Translations under genes and position numbers: made by a program | Assembly (NCBI RefSeq): GCF_944388875.1 | Contig: NZ_CALXKQ010000002.1 | Span: forward strand, 1 to 64,000 | From: an uncultured Brachyspira sp. | GTDB lineage: Bacteria > Spirochaetota > Brachyspiria > Brachyspirales > Brachyspiraceae | Length of the DNA: 64,000 bases | Direction of reading: 5' to 3' | The notes under the pieces: generated by a model | What the model was told of the DNA's origin: nothing | Database searches by the model: none | The model's input: only the letters and a program-made list of their open reading frames with translations | Shown: in pieces, positions 46,928 to 55,478 of the stretch | How positions within the stretch are numbered: the first letter of the stretch is position 1 | How the letters are laid out: every line of letters begins with the position of its first letter

Positions 46928-48424
46928 ATGAAAACTACAAAAGAAACTGTTGAAAATATAGTATGGAAGGCATGCGATACTTTTAGGGGTTCAATAGATT
47001 CTTCTGTTTATAAAGATTATATATTGAGTATGCTTTTTGTTAAATATTTATCAGATTTTGTTAAAGAAAAAACTGCAGAATTAAAAAAGAAATATGGAGA
47101 AAATGAAGGTATTTTATCGAGAAGTTTATTAAGAATGGCATATAAAATAAGCGAGGTATCCAGTTTTGATTATCTTTATTCTATGCGTGAGGAGAACAAT
47201 ATAGGAGAGATAATAAATACTGCATTGCGTGAAATAGAAAAGCAGAACCCTGATAAATTTGAAGGTATTTTTAACAATATAGATTTTAATGATTCAAATA
47301 AATTCGGAAATACAAAGACCAGAAATTCCATATTAAAAAATTTATTAGAAGACTTCAATGATCCTGCCTTAGATTTAAGTCCAAGTGCATTAGATAATAA
47401 TGATGTTATGGGTGATGCTTATGAATATTTAATAAAGAACTTTGCAGGCGATGCGGGTAAAAAGGGAGGGGAATTCTTTACGCCCCCTGAAGTGTCTATG
47501 TTAATGGCAAAGATAGTAAGCTATAATAGAGAGGGCGGATTAAAGGTATATGATCCTACATGCGGCAGCGGTTCTTTGCTTGTAAAGGTGTATAAAGAGC
47601 TTGGAGGAAATAACTGTACTATATACGGTCAAGAGAAGAACAGTCAAACGTATTCTTTATGCAGAATGAATATGTATTTGCATGAGATTAGAGATAAGGC
47701 AATAATAGAGTGGGGAGATACTATTAAAGAGCCTAAATTTTTAGATAAAAATGGCAATTTGGAAAGATTTGATATAGTGATAGCGAATCCTCCTTTTAGT
47801 TTGGATAAATGGGGCGAAGAAATAGTAGAAAAGGATAATTACAAAAGATTCGAGTACGGGATACCGCCTAAGAGCAAAGGAGATTATGCTTTTGTACTTC
47901 ACATGATAAACAGCATGTCATCCAATGGAATAACTGCTGTTGTAATGCCTCATGGTGTATTATTCAGAGGGGCAAGCGAAGGTACTATACGCGAAAGAAT
48001 AATAGAGGATAATCTGCTTGATGCTGTTATAGGTTTGCCTAATAATTTATTTTACGGCACTTCTATACCTGCATGTATATTAATATTAAAAAAAGACAGA
48101 AAAGAAAAGGATATTTTATTTATAGATGCAAGCGTGGAATATGAGAAAGGCAAGAATCAAAACCGTTTAAGAGAAGAGGATATAGAAAAGATAGCACAGG
48201 CATATAAAGACAGAAAAGACATAGAAAAGTACTGCAGAAGAGCGTCAATAGAAGAAATAAAAGAAAATGAGTACAATCTAAATATACCTAGATACATAGA
48301 TTCATTTGAAGATGAAGACAATGTTAATTTAAAAAGCATCAATAAAGAAATAGATGTTTTGTATAAAGAGCATGATGATTTAAGCATGAAATTAGGAAGT
48401 ATTTTAAAGGATATAAAGCTTTAA
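46928..48424 (+). CDS. hsdM: Type I restriction-modification system methyltransferase subunit HsdM
   Basis: The 498-residue N6-adenine methyltransferase has an N-terminal HsdM domain (DTFRGSIDSSVYKDYILSML) and then the SAM motif DPTCGSGSLL near residues 208-217. The catalytic IANPPF lies near 285-290. FFTPPEVSMLMA before motif I is typical. It assembles with HsdS to methylate the target and with HsdR to cleave. AAGGAG precedes the ATG. It opens an apparent operon running to 55478, but 158 nt separate it from the XRE gene, where a second promoter may lie. Confidence 0.95.
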   Translation: MKTTKETVENIVWKACDTFRGSIDSSVYKDYILSMLFVKYLSDFVKEKTAELKKKYGENEGILSRSLLRMAYKISEVSSFDYLYSMREENNIGEIINTALREIEKQNPDKFEGIFNNIDFNDSNKFGNTKTRNSILKNLLEDFNDPALDLSPSALDNNDVMGDAYEYLIKNFAGDAGKKGGEFFTPPEVSMLMAKIVSYNREGGLKVYDPTCGSGSLLVKVYKELGGNNCTIYGQEKNSQTYSLCRMNMYLHEIRDKAIIEWGDTIKEPKFLDKNGNLERFDIVIANPPFSLDKWGEEIVEKDNYKRFEYGIPPKSKGDYAFVLHMINSMSSNGITAVVMPHGVLFRGASEGTIRERIIEDNLLDAVIGLPNNLFYGTSIPACILILKKDRKEKDILFIDASVEYEKGKNQNRLREEDIEKIAQAYKDRKDIEKYCRRASIEEIKENEYNLNIPRYIDSFEDEDNVNLKSINKEIDVLYKEHDDLSMKLGSILKDIKL

Positions 48425-48478
48425 TTTAATGCATTTAGAATATAATACCATAATATATAATACTGGTTTACTTAATTT

Positions 48479-48505
48479 TATCATAGTGATATAATTCAAT
48501 TATAT
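48479..48505 (+). promoter_or_regulatory. Candidate operator palindromes before the XRE gene
   Basis: Two overlapping inverted repeats occur in the hsdM-XRE gap: TATCA-TAG-TGATA (48479-48491) and ATATAATT-C-AATTATAT (48489-48505, 8-bp perfect arms). Such sites would suit binding by the XRE regulator encoded next. AT-richness makes chance palindromes possible. Confidence 0.35.
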
Positions 48506-48582
48506 AGTAAATTATATTTTATAATTAGATTTATTTTGTATCAATCTATACTATTGGAAATTTATTTTTTTAGGAAAGCTTT

Positions 48583-48888
48583 ATGAAAAAAAATATTGGC
48601 GAAATTTTGAGTGAGTTTAGAATAAGTAAATTTTTAAGTTTAAGAGATTTATCTGAAAAAATGAATTTAGGAAATGAAGGACATGTATATTTAAGTGATA
48701 TAGAATGCAGCAGGATAATACCCTCTAAAGATGAAGTTATAAGTATATTAGAAGCATTAAATGTAAATTATAATTTAAATGAAATAATTGATATACTTGA
48801 ACATTCAAAAATAGATAATAGTATAGATGAAGATGCAGACTATTATGAAGAAACATATTTTAAAACTTTTGAAAAATTTGGTAGATAA
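48583..48888 (+). CDS. XRE-family HTH regulator of the inserted module
   Basis: The 101-residue protein has an N-terminal Cro/CI-type helix-turn-helix (ILSEFRISKFLSLRDLSEKM, then HVYLSDIECSR) and an acidic C-terminal tail. Its TAG stop is 2 nt from the next ATG, so it is tightly coupled to the ImmA/IrrE-MNT gene. XRE repressors next to ImmA/IrrE proteases are commonly the protease's substrate; that relation is inferred here from gene order. Confidence 0.85.
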   Translation: MKKNIGEILSEFRISKFLSLRDLSEKMNLGNEGHVYLSDIECSRIIPSKDEVISILEALNVNYNLNEIIDILEHSKIDNSIDEDADYYEETYFKTFEKFGR

Positions 48889-48890
48889 TT

Positions 48891-50045
48891 ATGAAAAATA
48901 GTGAAATTATAGATATAATCGAAAAAAATTTAACAAACTATATAAATAAAGGCGGAATAATAAAATATCCATTCCCTGTTGCAGATTTTGCTATTAGAAC
49001 TTTTGGTTTAAATGTAATATATGATGAAAAACTATTTTCTAAATATAAGAATAAGGCAGGAATGATAAATATAAAAAAATCTATTATAAATATTAATCCA
49101 AAAAGAGAAGATTTTAAAATAGGAGATTTCGTAGTACCTAAAGAGCTGTATATAGAAGAATCTGAAAATCAAATTATAGCTCATGAAATTGGGCATTATG
49201 TTAAATATGTAAATATAGACAGCAGAGAGCTTTTTGATAAAGCTTATTATGTTGATGAATATTCCAATATAATGTTCAGCAATGAGGTATTTGCTAATAA
49301 ATATGCAAGAAATTTATTAGTTCCTAAAGATGAATTAAATAAATTTCTTGGTAAAAATGAAATAATAGGTACTATAGATATTTTAAGAGAATCTTCAATT
49401 ATAAGAAAGTATTTTGGTATAACAGAGTTTATGCTTGAGGTAAGGCTGAAAGAGCTTAAAATACCATTTGTAAATGGATATTATATACCAGATCAACTAA
49501 AAAAAGATAATTTAATATATAGCAGAGAAAATTTATTAAAACTATTAGAAATTTCAATAGGAAATGGATTTGGATTAAGCCCTGACTACAGCGATTCTGA
49601 AAAAATAGCATATTTATATAATAAAGCAGCAGGCGAAAACATAGACAGCGGTCCGATATATATTACATTATGTAGAATAGCAGAAGGAAAATATGATCAT
49701 TTTGAAGAAATATGTGAAAGAAGATTAAGGTTTATAAATGAGCAAAGAAAAAAAATACCAGATATACAGAAACAAATAATATTAAAAAAGTTGGAGAAAG
49801 AGGGAGCAGGCAAAATAACCATATTTGGATCATTTGTAAAAAAAGGAAAAGCAGCTTTCAATGATAAAAGCGATATTGATATATTAGTTGATTTTAAAGA
49901 AACTAAGAGCATATTTGAGATAATGAGGATAAAAAATGAATTAGAACAGATGCTTTCAAGAAAAGTTGATTTGGTTACAGAAAATAATATAAAAGATTAT
50001 ATTGCTGAGTCAATAGAAGACAATAAAGAAGTATTATTACAGTAA
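48891..50045 (+). CDS. ImmA/IrrE metalloprotease fused to an MNT nucleotidyltransferase
   Basis: This 384-residue two-domain protein is the oddest gene in the window. N-terminal residues ~1-190 form an ImmA/IrrE (COG2856) zinc-protease domain with HEIGH in IIAHEIGHYVKY (near residue 104) and the downstream EVFANKYARNLLVP. The C-terminal ~100 residues (from about 290) form an MNT nucleotidyltransferase with GSFVKKGKAAFNDKSDIDIL, the GS(X)nDID active site of MntA antitoxins, and RKVDLVTENNI. An unassigned helical stretch lies between. HEPN follows 15 nt downstream. ImmA proteases inactivate XRE repressors and MntA adenylylates HepT; fusing the two is the novelty. Confidence 0.85.
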   Translation: MKNSEIIDIIEKNLTNYINKGGIIKYPFPVADFAIRTFGLNVIYDEKLFSKYKNKAGMINIKKSIININPKREDFKIGDFVVPKELYIEESENQIIAHEIGHYVKYVNIDSRELFDKAYYVDEYSNIMFSNEVFANKYARNLLVPKDELNKFLGKNEIIGTIDILRESSIIRKYFGITEFMLEVRLKELKIPFVNGYYIPDQLKKDNLIYSRENLLKLLEISIGNGFGLSPDYSDSEKIAYLYNKAAGENIDSGPIYITLCRIAEGKYDHFEEICERRLRFINEQRKKIPDIQKQIILKKLEKEGAGKITIFGSFVKKGKAAFNDKSDIDILVDFKETKSIFEIMRIKNELEQMLSRKVDLVTENNIKDYIAESIEDNKEVLLQ

Positions 50046-50060
50046 TCTAGGTAAAACAAA

Positions 50061-50396
50061 ATGAAAAAAAGTGATGTTTATTTTATTAATGATATAAAAA
50101 AATGTATAAATTCAATAGAGAAATATTTATTAGAAATAAAAGATAAAGATGATTTTATGAATAATGAAAGGATGCAGAAGCTAATGATGTTCGAAATAAT
50201 TATTATAGGAGAGGCTAGTAATAAAATATCATCAGCAACAAAAAACAATAATCCTCAAATAGAATGGCGTTTATTATCGGATATGAGGAATTTTTTAATA
50301 CATCAATACCATGATGTTTGTAATGATATAATATGGGCAACAGTAAATAGAGATATTCCTAAATTGAAAGAAGATATTTATAGTATAAAACTATAG
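50061..50396 (+). CDS. HEPN (DUF86/HepT-type) toxin-like ribonuclease
   Basis: The 111-residue helical protein of the DUF86 family carries the HEPN active-site motif RNFLIHQY (RX4HXY) near residues 79-86, and GEASNKIS in the middle. HepT toxins are RNases silenced when the partner MntA adds AMP to the motif tyrosine. Here the partner domain is at the C-terminus of the preceding gene. The stop overlaps the ribosome site of hsdS (TAGGAGA), so its translation is linked to restriction specificity expression. Confidence 0.88.
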   Translation: MKKSDVYFINDIKKCINSIEKYLLEIKDKDDFMNNERMQKLMMFEIIIIGEASNKISSATKNNNPQIEWRLLSDMRNFLIHQYHDVCNDIIWATVNRDIPKLKEDIYSIKL

Positions 50397-50404
50397 GAGA
50401 TACA

Positions 50405-51538
50405 ATGACTCAATGGCTTCCGAAAGGCTGGCAGGAAAAGAAGTTAAAAGATATTTGTACTATACAGGACGGAATACATACTACGCCAAATTATACGGAT
50501 AGCGGAATAAGATTTATAAGTGCAGAAAATATTAATAATATATATGCAAGCAATAAATTTATATCAGAAGAAGATTATAATAATTTATATAAAATTAAAG
50601 CAAAAAAAAATGATATTTTTATGACAAGAATAGGCGATATAGGAACCCCCGCAGTCATCACTAAAGATGAAAAATTAGCCTATTATGTTACAATAAGTTT
50701 ATTTACAAATATAAGCGAAGAAGTTTATTATCTCTATCTTTATTATGCAATGCAGTCATATTATTTTCAAAAGGCATTATATTCAAGAACTCTTCATGCT
50801 GCATTTCCAAAAAAAATAAATTTGAGAGAAATAGGCGAATGTAAATTGCTGCTTCCTCCTATTGATGAACAAAAACGCATAGTCAACATACTTTCATTAT
50901 GCGATGATATTATAGAGAATCTTACTAAACTTATAGAAAAAAAAGAACTTTATAAGAAGGGTGTAATGCAGAGGGTTTTAACAGGCAAGGCTAGATTTAA
51001 TGGTTTTAATGATGATTGGAAAATAAAAAAATTGTCTGATATTTGCAAAACTATAAAGACTGGAAAATTGGATGCTAATGCTATGGAGCAGGATGGTAAG
51101 TATAGATTTTACACTTGTGCCAAAGATTATTATAAAATAAACACTTATGCTTTTGACGGAGAGGCTTTATTAATATCTGGGAACGGTGCTTATGTTGGTT
51201 ATATACACTACTATAACGGCAAGTTTAATGCCTATCAGAGAACTTATGTATTAATGGATTTTACAGAAAACATTAAATATATAAAATACTATCTTGACGA
51301 ATATTTAAAATATAGAATAAAGAAGGAAAGACATGAAGGTAATACACCATATATAGTTATAAGTACATTAACCGATATGGAAATAAAATTGCCTAGTATT
51401 GAAGAGCAAAAAAGAATAGCTGAACTTCTTTCTGTGATAGATGCTGAAATAGATAATATAAAAAAACAGTTAGAATTACGCAAACTTCAGAAGAAAGGGC
51501 TTATGCAAAGGCTTCTTACAGGTAAAGTTAGGGTTTAA
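50405..51538 (+). CDS. hsdS: Type I restriction specificity subunit HsdS
   Basis: The 377-residue protein has two target-recognition domains in tandem: residues ~1-150 (GWQEKKLKDICTIQDGIHTT) and ~195-330 (DDWKIKKLSDICKTIKTGKL). Each is followed by a conserved spacer helix (PPIDEQKRIVNILS... GVMQRVLTGKARF and PSIEEQKRIAELLS... GLMQRLLTGKVRV). It sets the bipartite DNA target of the HsdM/HsdR complex. It lies directly after the HEPN gene rather than after hsdM. Only one hsdS and no recombinase are visible, so no shufflon is evident. Confidence 0.93.
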   Translation: MTQWLPKGWQEKKLKDICTIQDGIHTTPNYTDSGIRFISAENINNIYASNKFISEEDYNNLYKIKAKKNDIFMTRIGDIGTPAVITKDEKLAYYVTISLFTNISEEVYYLYLYYAMQSYYFQKALYSRTLHAAFPKKINLREIGECKLLLPPIDEQKRIVNILSLCDDIIENLTKLIEKKELYKKGVMQRVLTGKARFNGFNDDWKIKKLSDICKTIKTGKLDANAMEQDGKYRFYTCAKDYYKINTYAFDGEALLISGNGAYVGYIHYYNGKFNAYQRTYVLMDFTENIKYIKYYLDEYLKYRIKKERHEGNTPYIVISTLTDMEIKLPSIEEQKRIAELLSVIDAEIDNIKKQLELRKLQKKGLMQRLLTGKVRV

Positions 51539-51629: not shown

Positions 51630-54600
51630 ATGCCTAAAGAATACAGCGAAAGATTTTTACAGGATAAAGTAATAGAGCTTTTTAAGAATATGGGGTATCA
51701 ATATATAAGTCCAGAAGAAGCATTGACAGAAAGGGATAATGATACCAATAATGTGCTTTTAAAAAATATATTAGAAGAACAAATGAAAAAGTTTAATTAT
51801 TTTGTTTATGACGGCAAGAAGATTAATTTTTCTGATGATAATATAAAAAAAGCTGTAAATGATTTAGACATGCCTTTAATAAAAGGGTATTTAATTACTA
51901 ATGAAGAGATAACTTCAAAAATTATAAGGGGAGAATCGTATAAAGAAAAAATAGGAAATAAACAGGAAAGTTTTAATATAAGATATATAGATTTTGATAA
52001 TATAGATAATAATGTTTTTCATATAACAGAAGAGTTTATGGTAAGCAGAAACTGCACAGAAGAGAGAGAAAAAACGAGAAGACCTGATTTAGTAGTATTT
52101 ATAAACGGAATACCAATAGGAGTTATAGAATTAAAAAAAGGAAGTGTAGATTCAATAAATGCTGTAGAGCAGATGGTAAGAAACCAAAATGAAAATGAAA
52201 TAAGACAGCTATTCAAATTCTCTCAGATTCTTATTTGTGCTAACGATGATATTGTAAAATATGGTACGGCAGGTACTCCAGAAAAATTATATAATATATG
52301 GAAAGATAAAGAAAATAATGATAATAAAAGATTAAAGGCTTCAAATAAAGAACAAAGCAAGGTAATGAAAGAGCTTAATAAAATAATAAAAGACAGAATA
52401 ATAAATGAAATAGATATAACATTATATTCATTATTTGAAAAAGAAAGACTATTTGAGATTTTGGAATATTTTATAATATTTGACGGAGCTGTAAAAAAAG
52501 TAACAAGATATAATCAGTATTTTGCAGTAAAAAAGACTATGGAGCGTATTCAAAATATAGTCAAAGAAAAAAGAGAAGGCGGAGTTATATGGCATACTCA
52601 GGGAAGCGGCAAAAGTCTTACAATGTCAATGCTTACAAAAATGATATCCAAAAAAATAAAGAATTCAAAAATAGTTGTTGTTACCGATAGAGTTCAATTA
52701 GATGAGCAGATACATGATACTTTTTTAAATACTGATATTTCAGTGGCAAGGGCAGAAACGGGGGCTAATCTTGTCAAATTAATAGAAAGCGGAAAAAGTG
52801 TGATAACTACTGTAATAAATAAATTTGATAAGGTATTTGAAAAAAAAGTTATAATAGATTCTTCTGATATTTTTATTTTGGTAGATGAAAGTCATAGAAG
52901 TCAGTATGGTGATTTTGCTTTTAAGATGAGAAAAATTTTTCCAAATGCATGTTATTTAGGATTTACAGGAACCCCTTTATACAAATCTGAAAAAAGTACG
53001 GCAGAAAAATTCGGAGGCTTTATAGATTCTTATACTATAAGGGATGCATTAGAAGACAATGTAATAGTGCCTTTATATTATGAAAGCAGATTTATAGAAC
53101 AGAAAATACATGATAAAAAAGGACTTGATTTCAGATACGATTTAATTACAAAAAATTTAACTCAAGAGGAAAAAGAGGATTTAAAAAATAAAAAAGTTAC
53201 GGAAAAAGTTATATTAGAAAGCGAGCAGAGATTGGTATTGTTAGCTGATGATATAGTTAAGCATTATAATAAAAATTTGCTAAATACAGATTTTAATGCC
53301 ATGCTTGCCGTTTCAAGTAAGTATCAGGCTATGAAGATGAAGGAAATATTTGATGTTTATCATAATCTTGAAACTGCCGTTGTTATATCATCTCAGTATG
53401 ATGAAGGGGAAGATAATAAAAATAATGCAGAAAAGAAAAAATATGTATCAGAAAAATGGAAAGAGCTATACAGTAAATATTCAAATGATGAAAATAATTA
53501 TACTAAAAAAGTTACAGACAGCTTTAAAGACGGCAATATAGATATAATTATAGTGGTTGATAAACTTCTTACAGGATTTGATGCACCTAGGGCTCAGGTT
53601 TTATATATAGATAAAGAGTTAAAGGATCATGGACTTTTGCAGGCTATAGCTAGAGTAAATAGAACATATACAGGAAAGGATAACGGAGTATTAATAGATT
53701 ACAGGGGACTTCTTCAAAATTTAGATAAGGCTTTGAATGCTTATGATATATTAGCAAATTATGATTTAGAAGATATAGAAGATGCTGTATTTGACATAAA
53801 AGAAAAAATAAAAGAGTTTAAAGCTGCTTATGATGAATTGGTAAATTTTCTGCCAGAGCTTATTTTGAATGATAAGGATAAAATAAATAAATGCAGTTTA
53901 ATTTTACATGAAGAAAATAAGAGAAAAAAATTTTATGAATTATTTTTGAATTATTCAAAGCTTTTAAATATATGTCAGTTTAGCATGCATTTTTTAGAGA
54001 GTTTTAGTTATGAGGAGATATCAAAATATAAAGAATTATTTAAAACATGTATAGAGCTTAGAAAACGTTTGAGAATTAAATATCATGAGGCAATAGATTT
54101 TAAAGAATATGAATCTAAGATGCAGAAACTTTATGATGAGTTTATAGGTACAGAAAGCGAGGTAAAAGTTTTAAATAGAATACCAAGTATATTTGATGCA
54201 GATTTTGAAGCTGAAATAGATTCTTTAAATGAAGAAAAATCTGATGCTGTATTAAATGCAGCAAGCAGTGTAATAAAAGAAAGAATGGAAGAGAACCCAG
54301 AACTTTATACTAAACTCTCAGAAAAGATATCTGATATAATAGAGAGATATAAAAATCATAGGATAACAGTAGAAGAAAAACTTGAAGAGGCTATGGAAAT
54401 AGCATTGACAGTGAAAGGAGAAAATGAAAAAGAGAATATGAAATATGATGAGAGAATAAGGGATAATAAATGTGCCAGATCAGTTTATGATAATTCAAAG
54501 AAGTATATAGATAATGATGATGCATTGATAGATTTCTCTTTATTTGTTGATAAATTGTTTAAATCAAACAGCACTTTGCCTGATTGGCAGAATATTAAAT

Positions 54601-54776
54601 CTGTAAGGGATAATATAGAAGGCGATATAGATGTAAAATTATTTGAATTGGGAAATGAGAGTAAGGATGAAAAAATATTAAGCATAAGCAACAATGAAAT
54701 GACATCATTTTTAAATGTGCTTTTAAAAATAGGACTTAACATATATTCAAATTATAGTAATAAAAATACAAGGTAG
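51630..54776 (+). CDS. hsdR: Type I restriction endonuclease subunit HsdR
   Basis: The 1048-residue protein has an N-terminal PD-(D/E)XK nuclease (TRRPDLVVFINGIPIGVIEL, catalytic ELKKG near residue 166) and an SF2 translocase with Walker A HTQGSGKS (near 323), DESH box LVDESHRSQYG (near 419), FTGTPL and the motif VI region ARVNRTY. A helical C-terminal domain binds HsdM. All key motifs are present, so the subunit should be active. The stop codon is 3 nt before the YgjP-like peptidase start. Confidence 0.95.
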   Translation: MPKEYSERFLQDKVIELFKNMGYQYISPEEALTERDNDTNNVLLKNILEEQMKKFNYFVYDGKKINFSDDNIKKAVNDLDMPLIKGYLITNEEITSKIIRGESYKEKIGNKQESFNIRYIDFDNIDNNVFHITEEFMVSRNCTEEREKTRRPDLVVFINGIPIGVIELKKGSVDSINAVEQMVRNQNENEIRQLFKFSQILICANDDIVKYGTAGTPEKLYNIWKDKENNDNKRLKASNKEQSKVMKELNKIIKDRIINEIDITLYSLFEKERLFEILEYFIIFDGAVKKVTRYNQYFAVKKTMERIQNIVKEKREGGVIWHTQGSGKSLTMSMLTKMISKKIKNSKIVVVTDRVQLDEQIHDTFLNTDISVARAETGANLVKLIESGKSVITTVINKFDKVFEKKVIIDSSDIFILVDESHRSQYGDFAFKMRKIFPNACYLGFTGTPLYKSEKSTAEKFGGFIDSYTIRDALEDNVIVPLYYESRFIEQKIHDKKGLDFRYDLITKNLTQEEKEDLKNKKVTEKVILESEQRLVLLADDIVKHYNKNLLNTDFNAMLAVSSKYQAMKMKEIFDVYHNLETAVVISSQYDEGEDNKNNAEKKKYVSEKWKELYSKYSNDENNYTKKVTDSFKDGNIDIIIVVDKLLTGFDAPRAQVLYIDKELKDHGLLQAIARVNRTYTGKDNGVLIDYRGLLQNLDKALNAYDILANYDLEDIEDAVFDIKEKIKEFKAAYDELVNFLPELILNDKDKINKCSLILHEENKRKKFYELFLNYSKLLNICQFSMHFLESFSYEEISKYKELFKTCIELRKRLRIKYHEAIDFKEYESKMQKLYDEFIGTESEVKVLNRIPSIFDADFEAEIDSLNEEKSDAVLNAASSVIKERMEENPELYTKLSEKISDIIERYKNHRITVEEKLEEAMEIALTVKGENEKENMKYDERIRDNKCARSVYDNSKKYIDNDDALIDFSLFVDKLFKSNSTLPDWQNIKSVRDNIEGDIDVKLFELGNESKDEKILSISNNEMTSFLNVLLKIGLNIYSNYSNKNTR

Positions 54777-54779
54777 AAG

Positions 54780-55478
54780 ATGAGTGAAGTTATAATAGAA
54801 TACAAGAGGATTAAGAATATATATATAAGAGTGAAGCCTGATTTAAATATATATGTAACAGCACCTAAAAAGGTTGCCAAAAAATATATATATGATCTTT
54901 TAGAAAAGAGAAAAGATTGGATAGAAGATAAAAAAGAAGAGATAAAAAAGAAAAATATTTATGATATAAGCCTTAAAGAATTATCAAGCGGCAATGAGAT
55001 ATATTATCTTGGAAAAAGCTATATGCTTAAGGTATTAAAATGCAGAAAGGAGAATATAATTATTGCAGGCAGAATTATGTATATGTACGTTAATATCAAA
55101 GATGATGAGAATTACAAAAACAGCGATATAAGAAAAAAACATATACTGCTTGATACTTGGTATAAAAAAGAGGCTTTGAAATTATTTGATTCATTGATAA
55201 AAAAGTACAGCTCCCTTATGGAATTGCAAGTTAATACATTCAGTGTGAAAAAATTAAAAAGCAAATGGGGTTCATGCGATGTTAAGAAAAAACATATAAC
55301 ATTTAATTTAGAGCTTATGAAGTACCCTGTTCATGCTGTAGAGTATATAGTTCTCCATGAATTGGCACATCTTTTGCAGGCAAATCACAGCAAACAATTT
55401 TATGATATTGTAAGTCTTTATATGCCTGAATGGAAAAAAGAAAAAAAGATACTGGACACATTTTTTAATAATTTGTAA
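54780..55478 (+). CDS. YgjP-like (DUF45) M48-type metallopeptidase
   Basis: The 232-residue protein has the WLG/YgjP fold: the N-terminal region IEYKRIKNIYIRVKPDLNIYV, then KLKSKWGSCD and zinc motif HELAHLLQANHSKQFY (HExxH near residues 193-197 with a third His). DUF45 peptidases are often encoded beside type I restriction genes, as here (3-nt gap after hsdR), but their role there is not established. It is the last gene of the island. Confidence 0.88.
   Translation: MSEVIIEYKRIKNIYIRVKPDLNIYVTAPKKVAKKYIYDLLEKRKDWIEDKKEEIKKKNIYDISLKELSSGNEIYYLGKSYMLKVLKCRKENIIIAGRIMYMYVNIKDDENYKNSDIRKKHILLDTWYKKEALKLFDSLIKKYSSLMELQVNTFSVKKLKSKWGSCDVKKKHITFNLELMKYPVHAVEYIVLHELAHLLQANHSKQFYDIVSLYMPEWKKEKKILDTFFNNL

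Follow-up and report, generated by a model that had tools for sequence, protein, structure and literature searches.

The type VII toxin-antitoxin pair HepT/MntA joins an RNase, HepT, to the enzyme MntA, which silences it by AMPylation and is defined by the motif GSX10DXD (PMC7641770). Proteolytic control of XRE-type regulators is known from other systems: CapP is activated by ssDNA and cleaves CapH (reviewed in PMC13373217), and PprI/IrrE is an ssDNA-activated protease cutting XRE-type repressors (PMC10904395). A DNA-damage controller has been co-opted into a toxin-antitoxin system in VapKSC (PMC13373217), and COG2856-Xre together with a toxin was predicted in 2009 to form a three-component system (PMC2701414). 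DarTG2 with its regulator RptR is embedded in a type I RM operon (PMC12255303), and a coupling of RM with toxins has been predicted (PMC3506569). We analyzed a stretch of 64,000 nucleotides (hereafter the window) from an uncultured Brachyspira sp., a gut spirochaete whose closest matches in named collections likewise belong to Brachyspira, in which an ImmA/IrrE protease and an MNT nucleotidyltransferase form a single polypeptide encoded between an XRE gene and a HEPN gene. Each of these elements and the general logic were already known, but the combined fusion is apparently undescribed: the initial annotation knew of no description, and we found none in the literature searched.

The genes considered here all lie on the plus strand. 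The type I DNA methyltransferase gene hsdM (46928..48424; TIGR00497, 6.6e-109) is separated from the specificity subunit gene hsdS (50405..51538; PF01420, 2.3e-36) by an interval (48425..50404) holding the three genes of interest, and the restriction subunit gene hsdR follows (51630..54776; TIGR00348, 6.4e-148). The first gene of the interval (48583..48888) encodes an XRE-family protein of 101 aa with a helix-turn-helix at approximately 48613-48768 and a conserved acidic/aromatic C-terminal tail. Two nucleotides downstream begins the fusion gene (48891..50045), a single open frame of 384 aa carrying an ImmA/IrrE (M78, CapP-like) protease at its N-terminus, where the HEIGH zinc/catalytic motif occupies residues 98-102 (49182..49196) and E132 (49284-49286) is a candidate third zinc ligand. 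A region of approximately 95 residues (196-290; 49476..49760), possibly involved in sensing, leads to the MNT nucleotidyltransferase domain (residues 291-384; 49761..50042), which contains the motif GSX13DXD (GSF...SDID, residues 313-330; 49827-49880) and a third Asp, D360 (49968-49970). After a gap of 15 nt comes the gene for a HepT-like HEPN protein of 111 aa (50061..50396), the predicted RNase toxin, whose RX4HXY motif spans HEPN residues 76-83 (50286-50309); a further 8 nt separate it from hsdS. Coordinates, gaps and motifs agree with those of the initial annotation.

Profile searches and family members back the domains of the initial annotation, with unequal strength. In Pfam, the MNT half of the fusion scored over the cut-off (NTP_transf_2, E=1.5e-10), as did the HEPN protein (HepT-like PF01934, E=6.9e-20). 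The MNT domain additionally matched PADLOC PDC-S09 (5.6e-22), the solved MNT structure 1wot (1.5e-7) and, below the cut-off, the NCBIfam MntA model NF047752 (4.8e-10); the HEPN protein matched the NCBIfam HepT model NF047751, also below the cut-off (4.2e-7). For the protease half, the expectation that both halves of the fusion would match their profiles held in part: the window protein alone gave Peptidase_M78 at E=8.5e-4 and 19.6 bits, under the cut-off of 22, and M78 (PF06114) was matched by all eight members of the family alignment (best 7e-7), with the homologue from genome G017 (locus L008) over the cut-off at 29.4 bits. The protease assignment therefore leans on the family more than on the window sequence. 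The same half matched the defence-controller protease capP of PADLOC (1.6e-7), and H98, E99, H102 and E132 are invariant in the eight aligned relatives, including that of Treponema. The XRE protein scored 20 bits with HTH_3 (E=7e-4), below the cut-off of 23, and 1.3e-4 with the HTH regions of PADLOC HTH_VI and RmrA; its homologue in G017 (L008) gave 1.4e-13 with HTH_3. Full-length matches to RmrA/RmrT (RosmerTA) were absent, only short HTH or peptidase stretches being aligned, with 1.3e-4 as the best value in the window. The region of some 95 residues had no match in Pfam and was found in the alignment to be present also in the stand-alone, MNT-less proteases of G017 and Treponema. AlphaFold2 models were too poor to be used (mean pLDDT 55 for the fusion and 53 for the natural three-domain XRE-protease-MNT frame from G002), and a protease-substrate site was not predictable. 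An Rfam scan of the operon gave nothing, and a promoter scan returned 42 sigma-70-like sites against 32.5 expected, which is uninformative in such AT-rich DNA.

A sequencing or assembly error as the origin of the fusion can be ruled out, since the frame is equally uninterrupted in six further Brachyspira genomes. An intact fusion is thus found in seven of the 26 Brachyspira genomes, those of seven species (G000, the genome of the window, and G002, G008, G014, G020, G021 and G023), with 83-86% identity and no internal stop, and in all seven the HEPN gene lies directly behind it with a full RX4HXY motif. Relative to the window, dN/dS came to 0.12-0.14 in the protease half and 0.11-0.13 in the MNT half, while HEPN gave 0.10-0.23 and XRE 0.11-0.30, from which we conclude that every part of the module is under purifying selection. 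Wherever upstream sequence exists in Brachyspira, the XRE gene is directly 5' of the protease, in keeping with the proposed pairing of the two. In G002 the stop codon of the XRE gene has been lost, so that XRE, protease and MNT form one frame of 486 residues; a separate product is still possible there because the frame has kept its internal ATG and the GGAGG ribosome site. The DNA 5' of the XRE gene is not conserved: it measures 158 bp in G000 and 169 bp in G002, these two being alike over a stretch close to the start codon, and just 38 bp in G020 and 47 bp in G023, which in the latter two genomes leaves little room for an operator. Outside Brachyspira, no fusion was present in 393 Spirochaetota genomes, nor in the plasmids, phages or viral contigs surveyed, where 12 viral-contig relatives proved to be proteases of 159-191 aa without the MNT motif. 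A scan of genome contigs across cellular genomes, made with narrow patterns, yielded five loci, all spirochaetal.

The initial annotation had taken the C-terminal domain for an MNT antitoxin and overlooked the spacing of its motif. The GSX13DXD form is present in the seven fused domains, whereas every other Spirochaetota MNT in which the motif was found (approximately 30 loci), including the free-standing MNTs of Brachyspira, has the X10 spacing. Judged by the strict motif, the predicted MNT domain falls outside canonical MntA. It is still likely to be a nucleotidyltransferase, because GS, DXD and D360, the third Asp, are all retained; with the changed spacing, AMPylation may be altered and need not proceed exactly as in MntA.

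How the MNT domain came to be joined to a protease can be approached through the proteases that lack it. The protease part has its nearest relatives in G017 and Treponema. That of G017 (L008/L104; 46% identity, 303 aa) has an XRE gene directly upstream, no MNT and no adjacent HEPN gene; that of Treponema (G268, L025, also L105; 36%, 313 aa) has neither MNT nor adjacent HEPN either, and an XRE-type gene lies approximately 840 bp upstream. Both sit among RM-type genes. Since these two homologous proteases without MNT have no adjacent HEPN gene, and HEPN follows the fusion in each genome that has it, MNT and HEPN go together, being present or absent as a pair, as the initial annotation implied. 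On these comparisons, the simplest history would be that an XRE-protease controller of a defence locus gained a C-terminal MNT along with its HEPN partner. A local duplication of the MNT/HEPN pair that Brachyspira carries near ackA was considered as a source and rejected: its HEPN belongs to PF08780 rather than PF01934 and its MNT is 35-42% identical, so that this pair appears to represent another subfamily and is not supported as the origin of the fused MNT. Relics of a HEPN gene (residues 61-111, 82% identical to HEPN of the window) were detected in G017 and G018 (L122:4810-4962 and L123:4849-5001), with a chemotaxis gene on one side and an engA-like GTPase gene on the other; they suggest earlier copies, with past gain and loss.

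Measured against the described systems, the locus shares with type VII HepT/MntA the adjacency, 15 nt apart, of a HepT-like HEPN gene with RX4HXY and an MNT with GS...DXD and a third Asp, and differs in that the MNT stands behind a protease, has X13 instead of X10 and, like the HEPN, scores under the NCBIfam equivalog cut-offs. With CapH+CapP, ImmR/ImmA and DdrO/PprI(IrrE) it has in common a small XRE gene beside an M78 zinc protease (HEXXH...E) near defence genes, and its CapP-like protease with an XRE gene 2 nt upstream, inside an RM operon, corresponds to the CapH+CapP layout of such a pair next to a defence operon; here, however, the protease is extended by the region of some 95 residues and by an antitoxin domain, and XRE cleavage and a response to ssDNA are predicted from these relatives. 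In contrast to CapH, the XRE protein of the window had no capH match in PADLOC, only the relative in G017 having one (2.2e-7). VapKSC (PMC13373217) follows the same logic of a DNA-damage controller joined to an RNase toxin module, but uses kinase/STAS proteins in place of protease/XRE and the PIN toxin VapC in place of HEPN/MNT; the fusion may thus be regarded as its protease-based counterpart. In COG2856-Xre systems with RelE or PIN toxins (PMC2701414), a single operon likewise encodes a protease, an XRE protein and a toxin; in the window the toxin is a HEPN protein, and it is the antitoxin, not XRE, to which the protease is fused. Finally, defence or toxin-antitoxin cargo of type I RM operons (DarTG2-RptR, PMC12255303; PrrC; PADLOC PDC) is, as here, located between hsd genes and exchangeable among strains, but in our case it consists of XRE, protease-MNT and HEPN and occupies the interval between hsdM and hsdS.

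That interval is a slot whose cargo is exchangeable. What precedes hsdS varies among orthologous hsdM loci (72-87% identity): a 512-aa PDC-M11A protein and an ASCH protein in G003 and G005, PDC-S31 in G012, PDC-S60 in G014 (contig 152), PDC-M36A in G021 (contig 247), a TPR protein in G006 and G022, and no clear gene in G015. The flanks of G016 and G002 agree (hsdM and, after it, a chemotaxis gene in inverted orientation), with PDC-M11A/ASCH as cargo in the former and the module in the latter. Because the PDC names denote phage-defence candidates of PADLOC, the company kept in the slot is defence-like, and differing defence-candidate genes at the same position of orthologous RM loci are what characterizes embedded defence; the data fit the published case of DarTG2/RptR as well as the link between RM and toxins that has been predicted. 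The slot exemplifies a rapid turnover of cargo at one defined position within type I RM operons. The PDC-M11A gene (1.6e-203 with PADLOC) and the gene for the ASCH-domain protein behind it are found in G003, G005 and G016 at L107:3536-5342, L108:3614-5498 and L109:3501-5388.

It had been suggested that the module perhaps serves as a fallback once restriction has been defeated. In that form the idea finds no support, given that the slot takes unrelated cargo and that the module persists away from working RM genes. In G002, hsdM (L098:2802-4253) has an in-frame TGA just past the NPPF motif and the 15-kb contig shows no hsdS or hsdR after the module, which is itself intact. In G014, contig 94 (L099:5082-8341) carries the module and a split hsdS without hsdM, outside the RM operon and elsewhere on the chromosome, with hsp20 genes on one side and a hisC-like gene on the other; at this site G009, G013 and G004 have a dehydrogenase gene, and G005 has hsdS with a disrupted dehydrogenase gene. 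A short contig of G021 matches the arrangement of G014 (98%), and that of G008 is too short to compare. Since the module is intact with a broken hsdM in G002 and with an orphan hsdS in G014, it does not need the RM system, and these placements indicate that it travels with hsdS or alone. An operational link of the module to the RM system of the window is neither shown nor required; the same facts are compatible with sensing of phage or DNA damage by the module itself. Relative to G020, dS was 0.49-0.81 for the module and 0.77-1.65 for the flanking genes, a contrast that is only suggestive of horizontal transfer of the module.

Considering the observed gene content, intact motifs, purifying selection, co-occurrence of MNT and HEPN, cargo exchange and persistence without working RM genes, we propose, with a probability of roughly 0.55, that the locus is a mobile three-gene toxin-antitoxin module serving as exchangeable cargo, type VII-like and with its antitoxin fused to a CapH/CapP-like damage controller. 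By analogy with the respective families, the HEPN protein would be an RNase toxin, silenced by the C-terminal MNT through AMP addition to the tyrosine of RX4HXY, and the N-terminal M78 domain would be a CapP/IrrE-like protease, with XRE, the product of the preceding gene, as both its partner and its substrate. Stress, for instance from a replicating phage or broken DNA and most likely signalled by ssDNA, would prompt the protease to cut XRE, and the module would be derepressed; newly made, unmodified HEPN, or a change in the fusion lowering its antitoxin activity, could then stop growth of the infected cell. RNase toxicity, AMPylation and XRE cleavage may be expected from family membership, and the trigger and the linkage of the two activities in one chain are considerably more speculative. 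The weakest step is the switch, because in a shared operon derepression would raise antitoxin and toxin both, and the DNA before XRE is not conserved. A direct control of the nucleotidyltransferase by the protease domain would explain the single chain: the state of the protease (substrate or ssDNA bound) could set the AMP-transferase activity of MNT on HEPN, GSX13DXD being an adaptation to this role. We consider such an in-chain arrangement doubtful; if it were true, proteolytic signalling and toxin release would be coupled within one polypeptide and not via transcription. The fusion of an antitoxin to a DNA-damage-sensing protease family offers a concrete and cheap handle on the trigger.

Among other explanations, a plain addiction module is a possible one, which we hold tentatively at best: MNT/HEPN would stabilize the locus, the XRE-protease pair would only autoregulate, and the fusion would be a convenience of gene order, involving neither interdomain signalling nor phage defence. 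Persistence of the module with a nonsense hsdM and missing hsdS/hsdR, or beside an orphan hsdS, is what such a module would show, and the truncated HEPN relics of G017 and G018 point to the gain and loss that it would undergo; yet stand-alone MNT/HEPN pairs need no protease, whereas the fused one keeps its active site under purifying selection, and the slot mainly takes defence candidates. The XRE-protease pair might alternatively control chiefly the surrounding RM genes (hsdS/hsdR), in the manner of CapH/CapP or of C proteins, with MNT-HEPN as a safeguard. This is rather improbable, because the module is kept in G002, where functional RM genes are missing, and most orthologous loci run their RM genes without this pair, even though homologous proteases adjoin other RM-type genes in G017 and Treponema and only 8 nt separate HEPN from hsdS in the window.

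Two further readings concern the proteins themselves. The protease could trigger the toxin directly by cutting its own linker or the MNT/HEPN complex and so destroying the antitoxin, XRE being an inhibitor or sensor and not a DNA-bound repressor. With antitoxin and protease in one chain such a switch would be simple, and the poorly conserved region 5' of XRE speaks against a simple operator; we nevertheless judge it unlikely, as XRE-type repressors are what the known M78 proteases (ImmA, PprI/IrrE and CapP) cut, the fusion shows no evident site for self-cleavage and MNT-less proteases have the linker region too. Still less credible is a HEPN protein that would be a non-toxic, substrate-binding partner of the nucleotidyltransferase, the pair modifying another target (tRNA, a protein or a small molecule). 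In other nucleotidyltransferase pairs, HEPN proteins that lack RNase activity act as partners, and the GSX13DXD loop differs from that of MntA, but the full RX4HXY is kept in every genome with the fusion and the protein belongs to PF01934, the HepT family.

Other features of the surrounding RM loci were noted. A half-length hsdS-like gene of 198 aa lies just 5' of hsdM in several species, the window not being among them (L100:1481-2077, L101:1428-2024 and L107:1362-1958). The genome of the window itself carries on contig 9 an orphan hsdS of 391 aa (L137:1607-2782) with no adjacent hsdM or hsdR, possibly a reservoir for specificity exchange. Directly 3' of hsdR in the window is a YgjP-like metallopeptidase gene (54780-55478), which is kept at this position in the orthologous loci of G003, G005, G014, G015 and G020.
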